Source: Rhizophagus irregularis (taxonomy: Eukaryota; Glomeromycota; Glomeromycetes; Glomerales; Glomeraceae). Taken from it: DNA of 64,000 nt. Positions 22,340-58,670 of this stretch are shown here, piece after piece (position 1 is the stretch's first letter; each line of letters starts with the position of its first letter). Where the stretch lies: NCBI RefSeq assembly GCF_026210795.1, contig NC_089433.1, forward strand, positions 248,001-312,000. The letters run 5' to 3'. The position numbers were made by a program, and so were the translations under genes. The notes beneath the pieces were generated by a model. It searched no databases. It was not told where the DNA came from and worked only from the letters and a program-made list of their open reading frames with translations.

Positions 22340-23060
22340 TTATATTAAAAACAAATATTATTACTAACACTTACCTAAAATTAAATAGGATAATATACTG
22401 GATAATTATAAAAGAATTCAGTTAACAAAAAATATTATATAAAATATATAACAATAGGAAATAATGATGCTATATATGATATTAATCATTTTTTTTAAAT
22501 AAAAAATTTAGAATTATATTAATACTACATAAATATGCAATAATAAAATTTAATAAATAATTTTTAACTATTAAAAATAAAATATCACCAAATAATTTTT
22601 AAAAGTTAGATAGTTTAAAAATATATTAATATTATATAACATATATGCATGTAATATTAAAGTTTAAATTATATGTAGAAATTATATTGAGTATGTAACT
22701 ATTTAATTACTAATTAAATAGCTTATAACCCACTCGGCTAAAAAAGATTACAAAATATTTTATTATTTTTTAAATAAAGTTATGTAAATATTGTATAAAT
22801 ATGTAATAATAAAATTTTTATTAAATAAATAACTTGCAAATATTTAATAATAGAATTAAATGAATAACTTACTTCCTATATTATTAAATAATTTTTTAAT
22901 AAAGAATTTAGCTAGTTTAATTGTATGTAAATATTATGTAAATATGTAATAATAGAATTAAACAACCCATACTATAAAAATAATTTTCTTAAATAATTTA
23001 GTTAGTTTAAATTATATATAAATATTATACTGTATAAATATGAATAATAGAATTAAATAG
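22340..23060 (-). repeat. Decayed satellite related to the 38.5-39.6 kb intron-like array
   Basis: Read on the minus strand, units of roughly 100 bp repeat phrases such as AATTCTATTATTACATATTT, AAACTAGCTAAATTC and TAGGAAGTAAGTTATT. These are the same phrases as in the plus-strand array at 38484-39567. Some units keep TAG-3 nt-GTAAGT (for example near 22870), while others have lost it. No coding function. Confidence 0.65.
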
Positions 23061-23957
23061 ATAAAGTGAAAAAGAACGTGAGAGTTTATATTTAAAAAGA
23101 TTCATTGAACATAATACAAGATTTCCCACATCTCATAATTAATTGCATGAATTTTTTGGATTATAGTAATTAGAAAATTTAGTATGTTTAAAGTTTGTTA
23201 AATATAATTTACACTCTTGGTCATTCAAATACATAAAATTGATTAAAATGTTTAAAATTTATAGAAATATAGAAATCATAATTATGAACGAGCACCAACA
23301 TTATATAGTATTTAGGACTTACCTTTCTTATAACAAATATCAACAATAACTTTCCAAATATGAAACGTCATTAATGGTAATAAACTAAGGAACCCAATAA
23401 TTTTCTTTATTTCACATTCACCAAAAATATTTAGACATTCGCTATAATAAAATTTATTATAGTGATTTCTCTACCCTTAAATTGTAAGTGAATATTACAT
23501 AAGTTATTTACAAATGATTTTATTTAACAAATTATCTCGTTTAATATATTTACTTTCATATTCCTTGGAGCTACTTGAAACTCATTACAAATTTTTTAGA
23601 ATAATTTTAATCTATTAAATATTCATACTATATACTTTTTTACCTTTACATTACTGTGAGCTATTATTAAATAATAAGTATCGCATTTCTTTATTAATCA
23701 TCTTATTATAAAACATAGATTACATTAATTTAGAAATACTTAGAGGTAAACAATTATAAAAATTGAATAACCCTATAACTAACAAGTCTATTCTAAAAAA
23801 CGAATACTATGCTAAATAAATAATCTACTTACTAAACGCAACCTGTAATAAATACAATAAAATATATAAAAATTATTTGTAAAAGTTAACAAAGTTTTGC
23901 CTACTTATAAAAATTTTACTAACGTTTTATGTATATACTCTATGCATAATATTGATA
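23061..23957. other. Intergenic, nothing recognised
   Basis: AT-rich DNA with no convincing gene, hairpin or known element. It lies downstream of the minus-strand frame at 23958-24350. Confidence 0.4.
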
Positions 23958-38244: not shown

Positions 38245-41048
38245 ATGGCTCATAGTAATGATAAAGGTAAAAATATATATCAAGAATATTTAATGCAACT
38301 TAGAATTCAATCCTAAACAAATTTGCAATATAATGAAAATAGTTTCAAGTAGTACCAAGGAATCTGGAGGTAAATATAATATGTTAAACAAATTGATAGT
38401 TTCTTAATTTTATTTTACAGTGATATTCACATATTATTTAATCTAACTATATTCTTGTTTACTTAAAAATTATTTTAATAATTTAGCTTGTAAGTCAATA
38501 GGTTATCTTATAATTTAAATATTTATTGAATTACTTGATAAATTATTTATTTTTTCTTAATGTCTATATAACTAAATAATTCATTTAATGATTAATAAAT
38601 GCTATAGTTAGTAAGTTATTGTTTATATATTTTTTAATGTAAAATTACATTGTAGTATCCAAATAATTAAATTTTATTAACAACTATTTAATAATCTAGG
38701 GAGTAAGTTATAAATCATTTAGCCAAAACTATTATAGTTATTAAAATTAACATATAATTCAAAATTATTATATTATTTATTTAAATAATTAGAGTGTAAG
38801 TGATATGATATATTTAAACAGTTTAAATTGTTCATATTTCAGATTTATACATCTAATAATTAATAATAATATTTACAGGGTGTAAGTTACTATATATCAT
38901 ATCATATATGTTCTGTTATTTATATATAATATAAATTAACCAAATACTTAAAAATATTTGGTAGATTGTAAGTTATTAGTCATTTATTTAATTCTACTAT
39001 TATTTATAACATTTACATCATATAATTTAAACTAACTAAACTTTTTATTTAAAATAATTTATTAATAATATAGGGGGTGGGTTATTTAATTTAATTATTC
39101 TAAATTTATGTAATATTTACATATAATTTATACTACTAATTAAATTCTTTATTTAATAATATAGTTTGTAAGTGATTTATTTAATTTATTTATATAATGT
39201 TTACTTATGTTTAAACTAAACTTTTATTTAATAATGATGATAATCATATAGTTCGTAAGTGATTTATTTAACTTTATTATTATATACTTATATGATATTT
39301 GCATGCATTTTATATATTTTATACTAAATTAAATTCTTTATTTAAAAATTATTTAATACAGGAAGTAAGTTATTATTTAATTCAATTACTACATACTTAG
39401 ATATTATAATACAAACTAATCAAATTCTTTATTTAAATTTATTTAATAATATAGAGGGTACGTTGTTTATTTAATTTTATTATTTTTGTTTTGTGCAATA
39501 TTTATGATAATTTAGCTAAGATTTTTTTATTTAAAAATTACCTAATAATTTATTTAAGCTCGTGAGTTATAAATATTTCAATTATTTATTTAGATACTTA
39601 GTTTAATTTTAATTAACTGAATTCTTTATTTAAATAAATATTTGGTAATTTAGTTATTTTTATTAATGGTGACAAAAGTAGTGGATTATTTAAACCCGCA
39701 GTAAAATCATTAGATGATCGTGATGATGGCAGTAAGTTATAAATAATGATTATTATATATTATAATATAAAAACTAAGTTTTACATTCAATTATATTTCT
39801 ATTTAAATTTAGAGTAAGTGTGAATATTATTTTTTGTTTTTAATTTTAATATAACTTTTTAAAATACAACTTAATTATTTAATTATAAGATTTGAAGGAA
39901 GTAGAAATGCAGATACATTTATTCTTGAAAGCAATTTAAAATGGATTCCTTATGATAAATTTAAAAATGTTGAACGTATTGGTGATGGAGGATTTGGAAT
40001 TATATACAAAGCTATTTGGTCATTAAAAAGCGGAGATAAAGAAGTGATTCTTAAAAGTTCAAAATCAAATTTGGACAAATCTTTAATAAATGAAGTATGA
40101 TAATACAATATTTATTTTTTAAATTTAATTATAATTTATTTCTAACTAATATATTTAATTTGTATTTTTTAGTTGATATATCTTGCAAATTGTTTGGAAT
40201 CAACGGAAATTATTAATTTATACGGATACACAAAAAATCCAGATACTTTGAATTATATGGCAGTAATGAAATATGCAAATAAAGGTAAATTAAGAAGGAA
40301 TTTAGCAAAAGTAATTGAAATGAATTGGAAACAAAGATTATGTATATTATATAAAATTATTTCTGGGCTTCATGAAATCCATAATCAAAATCTTATTCAT
40401 TGTGTTTTAAGTGATGCTAATATTTTAGTTCATAAAGGTGAAGAGGATAAAGAGAATACTTTTTTTATTGGTGGGTTTGGATTATGTCAACCAGTATCTT
40501 TTAAAAAAGGGGATATTTTTGGTGTTATGCCATTTGTGGCACCTGAATTATTTAAAGGTAAACCTTATTCTCAAGCTAGTGATATATATAGTTTTTCTAT
40601 GATTATGTGGGAATTTACATCTGGAGTACCACCATTTGATAGAGAATTTGAACTTGATTTTATTTTAAGTATTTGTGGAGGTAAACTTCCTGAAATTATT
40701 GAAAATACTCCACAATGTTATGTAGATTTAATGAAAAGATGTTGGAATACTGATCCATTAAAAAGGCCATCTGCATCAGAAGTTAGGGGTATTATTGGAA
40801 GCTGGATTTTCCATTATTCTGATAATACTAATGATGAGTTAATAAGCAATGATATTATGGAATTTATAAATGCACCAGTTGGATATGCAACTGAATCTCT
40901 TCCACAATTTCTTAGTAAAAAAGAATTGGAAGAAATTCTTGAAAATAAATATTTAGAACCAAGTGTAAGTATAGATCTGAATGAAATGCTAGATTTGGAT
41001 GATTTGGATGATTATACAATTAAAGATACGAAGTCACTAGGTAGGTAG
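38245..41048 (+). CDS. Protein kinase-fold protein, predicted pseudokinase
   Basis: Supported exons are 39890-40094 and 40173-41048, which join in frame (SLINE then LIYLANC). The glycine loop GDGGFGIIYKA and a beta-3 Lys (VILK) are present. The catalytic HRD is HCV (40398-40406), and the DFG Asp is Gly (GGFG, 40470-40481). APE is intact (VAPELFKGKPYSQASDIYSF). Loss of both Asp residues predicts no normal phosphotransfer. Upstream exons are inferred: 38245-38266 (MAHSNDK), 38343-38369 (SSTKESG) and 39654-39731 (GDKSSGLFKPAVKSLDD), which share one phase. The phase into 39890 then needs one more base; the lone A at 39813, between TAG and GTAAGT, would supply it. The intron-like array 38484-39567 sits inside. 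A TATA-like motif lies near 38173. The 5' half is uncertain. Confidence 0.65.
38484..39567 (+). repeat. Twelve tandem intron-like units separated by 3 nt
   Basis: Twelve successive sites read AG, three bases, then GT in a donor context. The donor G positions are 38490, 38611, 38703, 38796, 38882, 38968, 39077, 39168, 39255, 39365, 39458 and 39562. Nine donors are GTAAGT; the others are GTGGGT, GTACGT and GTGAGT. Ten acceptors are TAG or CAG followed by triplets such as CTT, TTA, GGA and AGT. Spacing between donors is 86-121 nt. Several units hold a CTAAC- or CTAAT-like branch motif before a T-rich stretch. The array lies within the 5' part of the kinase gene. Confidence 0.8.
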
Positions 41049-54659: not shown

Positions 54660-55670
54660 TTTTTGTAGGAATACCCTGAAGATGAAATGGACCCCTAAAA
54701 ATAAAAGGTGTGTTTTTTTCAATTTTTTTTCCCATTCATTTCGTTCAAGAACAACGTCCCTAACATTCTTTCGTAATTTTTTTTTTATAGGAACACTCCC
54801 TGGAGACTCTTAAAGACAAAAGGTAAAATTCTTTTTCATTTATATTTGTTAATTTCGTTTAAGAACATTCCTAACATTCTTCAATAATTTTTTTTATAGG
54901 AACACCTCCTGGTGACTCTTGGAGATGAAAGGTAAGTTTTCTTTTTTTGTTTCTTTTATTAATTTCATTTAAGAACATTTCCTAACATTCTTTGAATAAT
55001 TTTTTTTATAGGAACGCCCCTGGTGACTCTTGGAGGCGAAAAGTAAGTTTCTTTTTGTTTCTTTTGTTAATTTCATTCAACTAAGGATGTTCCTAACATT
55101 CTTTCAATAATTTTTTTTGTAGGAACGTCCCCTAGATAAAAGATAAGTTTTCTTTTTTCGTCTCTTTTGTTAATTCCATTTAAGAATGTTTCTAATGTTC
55201 TTTCAATAATTTTTTTTATAGGAACGCCCCTGGTGACTCTTGGAGACGAAAAGTAAGTTTCTTTTGTTTCTTTTGTTAATTTCATTCAAGGACGTTCCTA
55301 ACGTTCTTTCAATAATTTTTTTTGTAGGAACATCCCCTAGATGAAAGATAAGTTTTATTTTTTCGTCTCTTTTGTTAATTCCGTTTAAGAATGTTTCCAA
55401 TATTCTTTCAATATTTTTTTTTTATAGAAATGTCTCCTGGAAACTCTTGGAGACGAAAAGTAAATTTCTTTTCATTTCTTTTGTTAATTTCATTCAAGAA
55501 TGTTCTATTAATGTTCTTTTAATAATTTTTTTATAGGAATGCCTCCCAGAGACTCTTGGAGACAAAAGATTTTTTGTATTCTTTTGCTAATTTTGTTTAA
55601 GAATGTTTCCTAACATTCTTTTGATGGTTTTATAGGAACACCACCTGGAGATGAAATGGACTCCTGGAAA
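54660..55670 (+). repeat. Ten tandem intron-like units of about 107 bp
   Basis: Acceptor-like T-runs ending in TAG start at 54666, 54787, 54897, 55009, 55120, 55219, 55325, 55425, 55534 and 55633. Most are followed by GAAC or GAAT, then the block CCTGGTGACTCTTGGAGAC or a shortened form. Units 1-4 and 6 then show a GT donor (GTAAGT in units 3, 4 and 6), leaving exon-like segments of 31-39 nt. Each intron-like part has TTAATTTC, AAGAACRTT and CTAAC (for example 54871-54875), then TCAATAATTTTTT. The exon-like lengths are not multiples of three. Confidence 0.8.
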
Positions 55671-58124: not shown

Positions 58125-58670
58125 TAAAAAATAAACTAGAAAACACTTCATACCATGATACTTATTTTTTTTAGCGAAATATCAAAAATTTTAGGAAAGG
58201 TCTTAAGCCCTTTTCTTTACGTCTTCCTTTAGGTATGTGGGTTGTTGTGTGTAGGTTTGTGTGTGGGTTTGTGCGTAGGTGGTGTATGTTTTTGTATTTC
58301 CTTGCTCTTTCCCTTCCCGATCATAAATATTAAAAAGAAGTAAATAAGAAGTAAATAAGAATAAACTAAAAGACACTTTATACCATGATATTTTTGTTTT
58401 TTAGCGAAAATATCAAAATTTTAGGAGAGGTGATCGTAAATATTAAAAGGAAGTAAATAGAATAAACTAAAAGACACCTTATATCATAATACTTTTTTTT
58501 TTTAGCGAAAATATCAAAAGTTTTGATAGAGGTGATCGTAAATATTAAAAGGAAGTAAATAGAATAAACCAAAAGGCACTTTATACCATGATACTTTTTT
58601 TTTTTAGCGAAAATATCAAAGGTTTTGAGAGGGGTGTTCGTAAATATTGAAAAGAAGTAAATAAGTAAGT
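58125..58670. repeat. Tandem repeat, about 103-bp units
   Basis: One separated copy (58130-58215) and three adjacent copies (58352-58454, 58455-58560, 58561-58665) share AATAAACYAAAAGGCACTT, ATACCATGATA, TTTTTTTAGCGAAAATATC and GGTGATCGTAAATATT. Each unit has a T-run ending TTTAG, again like a 3' splice site. A GT-rich stretch (58240-58300) lies between the first and second copies. Confidence 0.7.

Follow-up and report, generated by a model that had tools for sequence, protein, structure and literature searches.

Consecutive three-nucleotide exons predicted upstream of the kinase domain in a gene family of Rhizophagus irregularis

Introduction

What becomes of a run of twelve intron-sized units in which every AG is followed, exactly three nucleotides later, by a GT in splice-donor context? 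Such a run lies in the 64-kb stretch of the Rhizophagus irregularis genome that was analysed here (positions 248001-312000 of contig C5; hereafter, the window). A first-pass annotation of this DNA suggested that, if all of the sites are used, the transcript would gain a series of 3-nt exons of one codon each, and that any number of them could be included or skipped without a change of frame. It offered as alternatives the recursive splicing of one long intron and a satellite born from the tandem duplication of an intron. We address these possibilities with a gene model for the locus, with related loci from the rest of the genome (146,748,485 bases in 32 contigs), and with the distribution of stop codons that would arise if the triplets were joined and translated.

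Results

A predicted kinase gene with twelve 3-nt exons

A pattern scan of the 64-kb window for AG-NNN-GT[AG]NGT recovered twelve of twelve consecutive units on the plus strand between 38485 and 39561, with donors spaced 86-121 nt apart, just as the first-pass annotation had reported. The array had also been placed correctly, and by our gene model the gene that contains it extends from 38245 to 41048 (Table 1). Nine of the twelve donors are GTAAGT, and the remaining three read GTGGGT, GTACGT and GTGAGT. Since the same AG-NNN-GT pattern is found elsewhere in the window only three times on the plus strand and three times on the minus strand, the occurrence of twelve sites within 1.1 kb is not due to chance.

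Table 1. Predicted exons of the array-bearing gene and other features of the window
Feature	Position	Strand	Description
Exon 1	38245..38266	+	22 nt, begins with ATG; MAHSNDK plus first base of next codon; opens the 414-aa frame
Exon 2	38343..38369	+	27 nt, encoding VSSSTKESG; last base G, exits in phase 1
Twelve 3-nt exons	38487..39561	+	Introns between them 83-118 nt
3-nt exons 1-4	38487-38489, 38608-38610, 38700-38702, 38793-38795	+	AG at 38485, 38606, 38698, 38791
3-nt exons 5-8	38879-38881, 38965-38967, 39074-39076, 39165-39167	+	AG at 38877, 38963, 39072, 39163
3-nt exons 9-12	39252-39254, 39362-39364, 39455-39457, 39559-39561	+	AG at 39250, 39360, 39453, 39557
78-nt exon	39654..39731	+	Follows the array and precedes the 1-nt exon; entered and left in phase 1
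1-nt exon (A)	39813..39813	+	Takes the frame from phase 1 in the array to phase 2 at the kinase exon
First kinase exon	39890..40094	+	A|TTTGAAGG...; glycine-rich loop GDGGFG; Pfam match of spliced protein
Last exon	40173..41048	+	Remainder of the kinase domain plus C-terminal tail; 41048 is the last base of the stop codon
Decayed relic of same gene type	22375..23661	-	Remnant of 5' exons; about five recognisable units
Second tandem array	54734-55621		Period ~109; units like a 31-32 nt exon plus intron

Spliced as predicted, exons of 22, 27, 12 x 3, 78, 1, 205 and 876 nt yield one open frame of 414 aa, and all of the introns are GT-AG introns of 76-118 nt. Reading passes from the upstream exons into the array in phase 1 and must enter the kinase exon in phase 2; the 1-nt exon supplies the missing base and restores the kinase frame after the array. 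Conceptual translation of the twelve triplets together with the preceding G gives AFRKWYWVFRKA. The spliced protein matched PF07714 (E 7.4e-37) and PF00069 (E 1e-32) in Pfam, and its PK_Tyr_Ser-Thr score was 127.5 bits against a curated cut-off of 23.1; only kinase families exceeded the Pfam cut-offs, and neither a NACHT nor an ankyrin domain was detected in this protein. The HRD and DFG motifs carry the catalytic aspartates of protein kinases. As read by eye, the window copy has HCVLSDAN and GGFG at the usual places of these motifs (40173-41048), and because both aspartates are missing the protein is probably best regarded as a candidate pseudokinase.

A family of array-bearing genes

A search of the genome with the array DNA gave 181 matches (303 first-look candidates, 30 of which were scored), and at least 30 distinct array places could be told apart among the matches listed. 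Nineteen of the 30 places listed made up a first set of arrays (L001, L003, L006-L008 and L013-L026); another, L028, entered with a second set, and seven (L002, L004, L005, L009, L010, L011 and L012) were excluded from most counts because they are contained within L013-L017. An early count of 264 triplets includes duplicates from such overlapping loci.

In 17 of the 19 first-set arrays, a motif for a 1-nt exon follows the array, with the form AG|A or G|GTAAGT; the exceptions are L014, the stretch for which ends before the motif, and L017, in which none was found. One exact form of this motif occurs at 94 sites genome-wide compared with 1 for a reversed control; because no more than 12 first-set arrays out of 19 fall at those sites, 94 is a lower bound on the size of the family. 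The second set of 20 loci was taken by a fixed rule from the 82 motif sites that had not yet been fetched (every fourth site, starting at the second). These stretches were limited to 4 kb, with the result that long arrays miss their 5' end. Parsed 3-nt units lay upstream of the motif in 20 of the 20 loci, and 19 of these loci had at least 11 units. For the 39 arrays of both sets, the number of parsed units ranges from 3 to 76, with a median of 30.

The exon that opens the kinase domain (A|TTTG... or similar) is open in 15 of the 19 first-set arrays and, by a simple search, in frame in 17 of the 20 second-set loci. Our script did not find it in L014, L016 or L017, and in L026, as first read, it reaches a stop after two residues. 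In the 33 arrays for which the script recovered both exons, the codon that spans the 1-nt exon is GAA in 26, AAA in 4, GGA in 1 and TAA in 2. One of the TAA codons (L030) is explained by a final unit with the donor GTAAAG that was missed by the parser. The other (L025: last triplet TTT, 1-nt exon A and the A of the kinase exon) stands, and L025 is possibly a broken gene. Starts that resemble exon 1 (ATG...AAAG|GT) are visible by eye in related loci, and exon 2 is open and in phase in 10 of the 19 first-set loci as identified with a regular expression. In L007, L013 and L014, exon 2 has the look of an in-frame minisatellite, with acidic EEFEGS-type repeats that differ in copy number between the genes. 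A counterpart of the 78-nt exon is present in L003; 35 of the 39 arrays leave no such exon, since their last parsed unit is followed by the 1-nt exon after 40-140 nt. Judged by these shared features, the array gene in the window belongs to a large family of putative kinase genes.

The three-base spacing is maintained across the genome

Random AG-to-GT spacing in genomic copies of the unit had been named, alongside an absence of junction reads, as an observation that would refute the proposed exons, and such spacing was not what we saw. One donor-side sequence, GTAAG plus one exact 23-nt intron tail, is present at 950 places in the genome; at 932 of them exactly three bases separate the GT from a preceding AG, while reversed-pattern controls returned 0. 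When acceptor and donor were picked by separate position scores, with an acceptor matrix trained on 3-nt units, 563 of 627 donors had their best acceptor at a distance of 3 nt; another length scored best for 10, and 54 had no acceptor. Both of these tests are less biased than the unit parser, which by construction takes 3-nt exons only. A count based on anchors recovered both AG and GT where they were expected in 268 of 453 cases. It carries little weight in either direction, because many of the 60 misses listed had an extra ATAAG-like stretch between donor and anchor or an anchor that was a few bases off. In a profile prepared with the splice sites masked, one base accounted for ~90-99% of many intron columns and for ~43-52% of the triplet columns; since the alignment smeared the masked columns, the profile was not used as a test of spacing.

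The spacing bears on the possibility that the array is a single long intron, removed either stepwise by recursive splicing or as a whole, and that the triplets never appear in the mRNA. Omission of the entire array would preserve the frame, and stepwise removal would require acceptor and donor sites to be near each other. In known recursive (ratchet) sites, however, the AG is directly followed by GT and the exon has a length of zero. With three bases between AG and GT in the 932 places noted above, the array sites were rejected as ratchet sites. Introner elements, which are similar introns inserted in many unrelated genes, provide another comparison. The arrays that we examined are all tandem, and the last unit is 40-140 nt from the 1-nt exon in the 35 of 39 arrays mentioned earlier; it should be noted that 20 of the 39 were chosen by the 1-nt motif, and that unrelated genes were outside the scope of the search.

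Stop codons are absent from the predicted joins between neighbouring triplets

Because the array is entered in phase 1, a codon would take its first base from the end of one triplet and its other two from the start of the following one. None of the 1041 phase-1 joins in the 39 arrays of both sets forms a stop codon, compared with 35.5 expected from 5000 shuffles of unit order within arrays, for which the combined minimum was 20. The first set (19 arrays, 656 units) contributed 592 joins and 0 stops, with a shuffle mean of 21.4 and a minimum of 8 over the 5000 shuffles, and the result was replicated on the rule-picked loci of the second set (506 units, 449 joins, 0 stops). At the 129 joins where the following triplet begins with AA, AG or GA, the preceding base is never T, compared with 304 of 912 joins with other starts (p 1.6e-21), and for the second set alone the corresponding counts are 0 of 41 at-risk joins and 139 of 408 others (p 1.5e-7). 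The joins T|AA (0/27), T|AG (0/81) and T|GA (0/21) are each absent, and T|AT (Tyr, 75/289) and T|GG (Trp, 85/239) are common. Base by base, the pattern at the joins is that of the genetic code itself.

The block duplication described below inflates the number of joins, and the counts were therefore repeated on distinct triplet pairs. The avoidance remained in the first set (T in 0/51 versus 70/234, p 1.4e-7) and in the second (0/27 versus 65/188, p 6e-5). The other two phases were rejected as reading frames. Phase 2 gives 138 stops in the 39 arrays, and phase 0 gives 4 stops in the 506 triplets of the second set; the 656 triplets of the first set have 0 stops in phase 0, where merely 2.0 were expected (P = 0.07) because triplets that start with TA or TG are rare. 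Retention of an intron would introduce a stop in 1034 of 1041 cases. Joins over gaps of more than 135 nt (82 breaks, with unparsed units) were excluded from the main count, and 5 stops would arise if the sequence were joined across them. These stops fit a missing unit at the break, and a broken gene is also a possibility. Given the stops at breaks, the TAA of L025 and the early stop of L026, some genes of the family may be decayed. Triplets that start with AA, AG or GA are also poor in T at their own third base (24/147 versus 308/1015, p 3e-4), a bias that is weaker than the effect at the joins and that stop avoidance does not explain.

If the triplets were outside the mRNA, there would be no reason for TAA, TAG and TGA to be avoided in phase 1 only, and we regard removal of the array as one long intron as very improbable. 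Splicing could run stepwise from 5' to 3' even with the triplets kept.

A further possibility is that the array is a satellite which arose by tandem duplication of an intron, that the spacing has been kept by copying, and that the lack of T reflects intron ends inherited together. The units are clearly tandem duplicates with subfamilies, the acceptor subtype is associated with the first two exon bases, and the two bases that are joined flank the same intron and could have been inherited as a pair. Within the subfamily of units with the acceptor AATATAG, however, none of 82 at-risk joins carries T, compared with 81 of 278 others (p 6e-11), and A, C and G each occur before AG. As the avoidance persists within this subfamily, shared ancestry of intron ends does not account for it; two smaller acceptor subfamilies (0/8, p 0.11; 0/5, p 0.32) have too few joins to tell. 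Copying does not account well for the spacing either. In the relic on the minus strand of the window, only one of about five units keeps AG-NNN-GTAAGT and the 1-nt exon has been lost (AG|GTAAGT), with no kinase visible by eye downstream of the relic. In the second tandem array, the units of which have intron-like ends (TATAG|GAAC...GAAAG|GTAAGT), the distance from AG to GT is 31, 32 or 39, or no such pair was found. In these two cases, in which the spacing was lost or varies, tandem duplication alone has not kept it. We give the satellite explanation next to no credence. A listing of repeats in the window also includes a 102-nt unit, repeated 3.1 times at 58348-58663, that has the intron-like ends GTAAATAG ... 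TTTTTTTTTTTAG.

It is also possible that units are freely skipped or included and that each transcript carries a different subset of them. Any subset of the 3-nt exons preserves the frame, the donor and acceptor sequences are similar among units, and the codon-sized exons of the Tuber melanosporum nank genes are described as alternatively spliced in the portions of two papers that were accessible (PMC4986451, PMC9815663). Free skipping as the rule predicts that stops would be avoided between non-neighbouring units as well, but no such avoidance was detected at lags of 2 to 8. At lag 2, T is found in 33 of 122 at-risk pairs and 220 of 812 others, and reversal of unit order likewise showed no significant avoidance (p 0.15). 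That the avoidance vanishes between non-neighbours points to consecutive joining of the exons, and we consider routine skipping unlikely. Occasional skipping is not excluded, as only about 3.5% of single skips (33/934) would create a stop; the lag-2 result suggests that skipping of units is not strongly felt by selection.

The suggestion that all of the sites are used and that the transcript gains the 3-nt exons is supported by this coding evidence, which disfavours both the stepwise removal of one long intron and a non-coding satellite. The exons are codon-sized as had been proposed, but they are not codon-aligned, since in phase 1 every codon is split by an intron. The skipping of units would indeed be neutral with respect to frame, but stop avoidance confined to immediate neighbours argues against its being free.

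Copies of these genes without introns were sought with three joined array peptides, one alone and two together with the start of the kinase, and none was accepted. The first of these searches had no positive control, and only 150 candidates were scored in each of the other two. Most of the matches start at the kinase exon; some, not all of which were checked singly, extend toward the array, a few of them without a stop. One match, C4:772336 (query 8-75), was rejected as an intron-free copy and read as an extension through the following intron because its start lies inside a 1-nt exon motif (C4:772332-772350).

The codons vary more than the introns around them

Among 1658 pairs of units from the same first-set array, with flanks aligned with at most 4 gaps, the triplets differ at 0.338 mismatches per site versus 0.057 for the flanks. 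Even in pairs with 60 identical flanking bases the triplets are not uniform: of 291 such pairs in the first set, 12% differ at the first base and 17% at the third, and of 163 in the second set, 10% differ at each of these bases; AG and GT are constant in this comparison by construction of the parser. In collinear block duplications, some of which overlap, changes were counted at 8/114 and 4/81 triplet sites (total 12/195) and at 22/2961 and 19/2098 flank sites (total 41/5059). Variability alone could not separate diversifying selection on the codons from homogenisation of the introns around conserved codons.

Among the 1041 predicted array residues, R, F, D, W (8.2%), N and Y are abundant, whereas C is scarce (0.3%). 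As judged by eye, many segments open with some version of [LF]-x-[DN]-W and their central parts appear unrelated between genes; F is the last residue in 30 of 39. The predicted segment fits a variable stretch between fixed ends. In the first set, the acceptor subtype is related to the start of the exon: AATATAG is mostly followed by GG or AG, TTTTAG by TT, and TTTAAATAG by AT. Since the subtype is tied to the first two exon bases, the subfamilies of units match the middle base of the codon and thus its chemical class.

Discussion

The reading that we favor, and in which we have high confidence although it is inferred from sequence without RNA or peptide data, is that the triplets are joined in genomic order by splicing and read in phase 1, with a 1-nt exon that sets the frame of the kinase. 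The avoidance of stops provides strong support for ordered joining and translation, and the phase-1 reading and the role of the 1-nt exon are supported by phase bookkeeping that is consistent across the family. The residues just N-terminal of the kinase domain would then be encoded by consecutive 3-nt exons, each accompanied by a GT-AG intron of ~97 nt. Array codons would straddle the introns, and the downstream 1-nt exon would set the frame of the kinase exon. One way in which this could be accomplished is that the spliceosome recognises each short intron singly (i.e., intron definition) and removes all of them; the use of every site, the mechanism and the order of removal are inferred.

An arrangement in which a codon sits within a homologous repeat of ~100 nt may allow unequal exchange and block duplication to add, delete or move codons in frame. 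Block duplications were seen, and recombination as the source of codon change is inferred. The variable segment might in turn feed a kinase or pseudokinase with a receptor-like role, which is likewise inferred. We would give about even chances to the region being a diversified binding segment of such a receptor-like protein, an assessment that is based only on variability and residue composition. A larger proposal, in which codons act as recombination cassettes and about a hundred kinases carry a hypervariable binding segment that can be grown, shrunk and reshuffled in frame, so that an immune-like repertoire is built on repeats that are spliced out, can be put forward only tentatively, and we lean against rather than toward it.

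If the favored reading is correct, standard annotation of these kinases may overlook their most variable part, and the family would represent an extreme for the spliceosome, with as many as 76 parsed 3-nt exons in a single array and a 1-nt exon besides, and a natural test bed for intron-defined splicing. Codon-sized exon arrays would extend from truffle NLRs to kinases in what is apparently another fungal phylum, which suggests that arrays of this kind may have arisen repeatedly in fungi as a means of diversifying recognition proteins. Should the segment be a recognition surface, the family would be a candidate repertoire by which a root symbiont distinguishes self, host and microbes.

Schistosome micro-exon genes and aphid BICYCLE effectors have many short exons and fast-evolving products; their exons are longer than one codon and their introns are not known to be near-identical tandem repeats. 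Bicycle effectors are mentioned in the accessible text of PMC11333574, and the SP7-like effectors of the same source were rejected as relatives because, as far as that text goes, they are unlike proteins whose repeats are preceded by a single conserved intron.

Single-nucleotide exons have been described for Arabidopsis APC11 (PMC4674806) and Fusarium CYP621A (PMC12940212), where, according to the parts of these papers that were available, the exon is similarly required for phase compatibility. Those are single-gene cases with support from RNA or expression constructs, whereas the 1-nt exon of Rhizophagus is inferred from sequence, comes after a run of predicted 3-nt exons and is repeated at 94 places by exact pattern. 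The 3-bp microexon of Drosophila homothorax (PMC7392893) is also a spliced exon of three bases, but as described in the text available it is one alternatively spliced exon in one gene, with no tandem array.

The closest likeness is to the nank genes of Tuber melanosporum, and the first-pass annotation's statement that no case had been described does not hold, since the 3-bp mini-exons of these NACHT-ANK NLRs are in print. Dozens of codon-sized mini-exons are attributed to them in the accessible parts of three papers (PMC10197012, PMC4986451, PMC9815663, citing Iotti et al. 2012). A search of the literature on small exons, with most subscription papers and all bioRxiv preprints outside its scope, found no report of such arrays in Rhizophagus among the papers listed. 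The two systems share dozens of 3-bp exons, which in Rhizophagus are inferred from coding evidence, and an expanded fungal family, and the truffle exons are credited, in the text seen, with diversifying a recognition domain. They differ in that nank encodes NACHT-ANK NLRs and the Rhizophagus genes encode predicted kinases in what appears to be another phylum, and in that the Rhizophagus array is N-terminal of the kinase domain, whereas the truffle exons are said to affect a C-terminal recognition domain. Moreover, in contrast to the splicing described for nank in these partial sources, the sequence in Rhizophagus points to consecutive joining in phase 1, and a 1-nt exon closes the array. Arrays of 3-nt exons are thus already known from truffle NLRs, and the predicted kinase-linked arrays of Rhizophagus would extend that kind.
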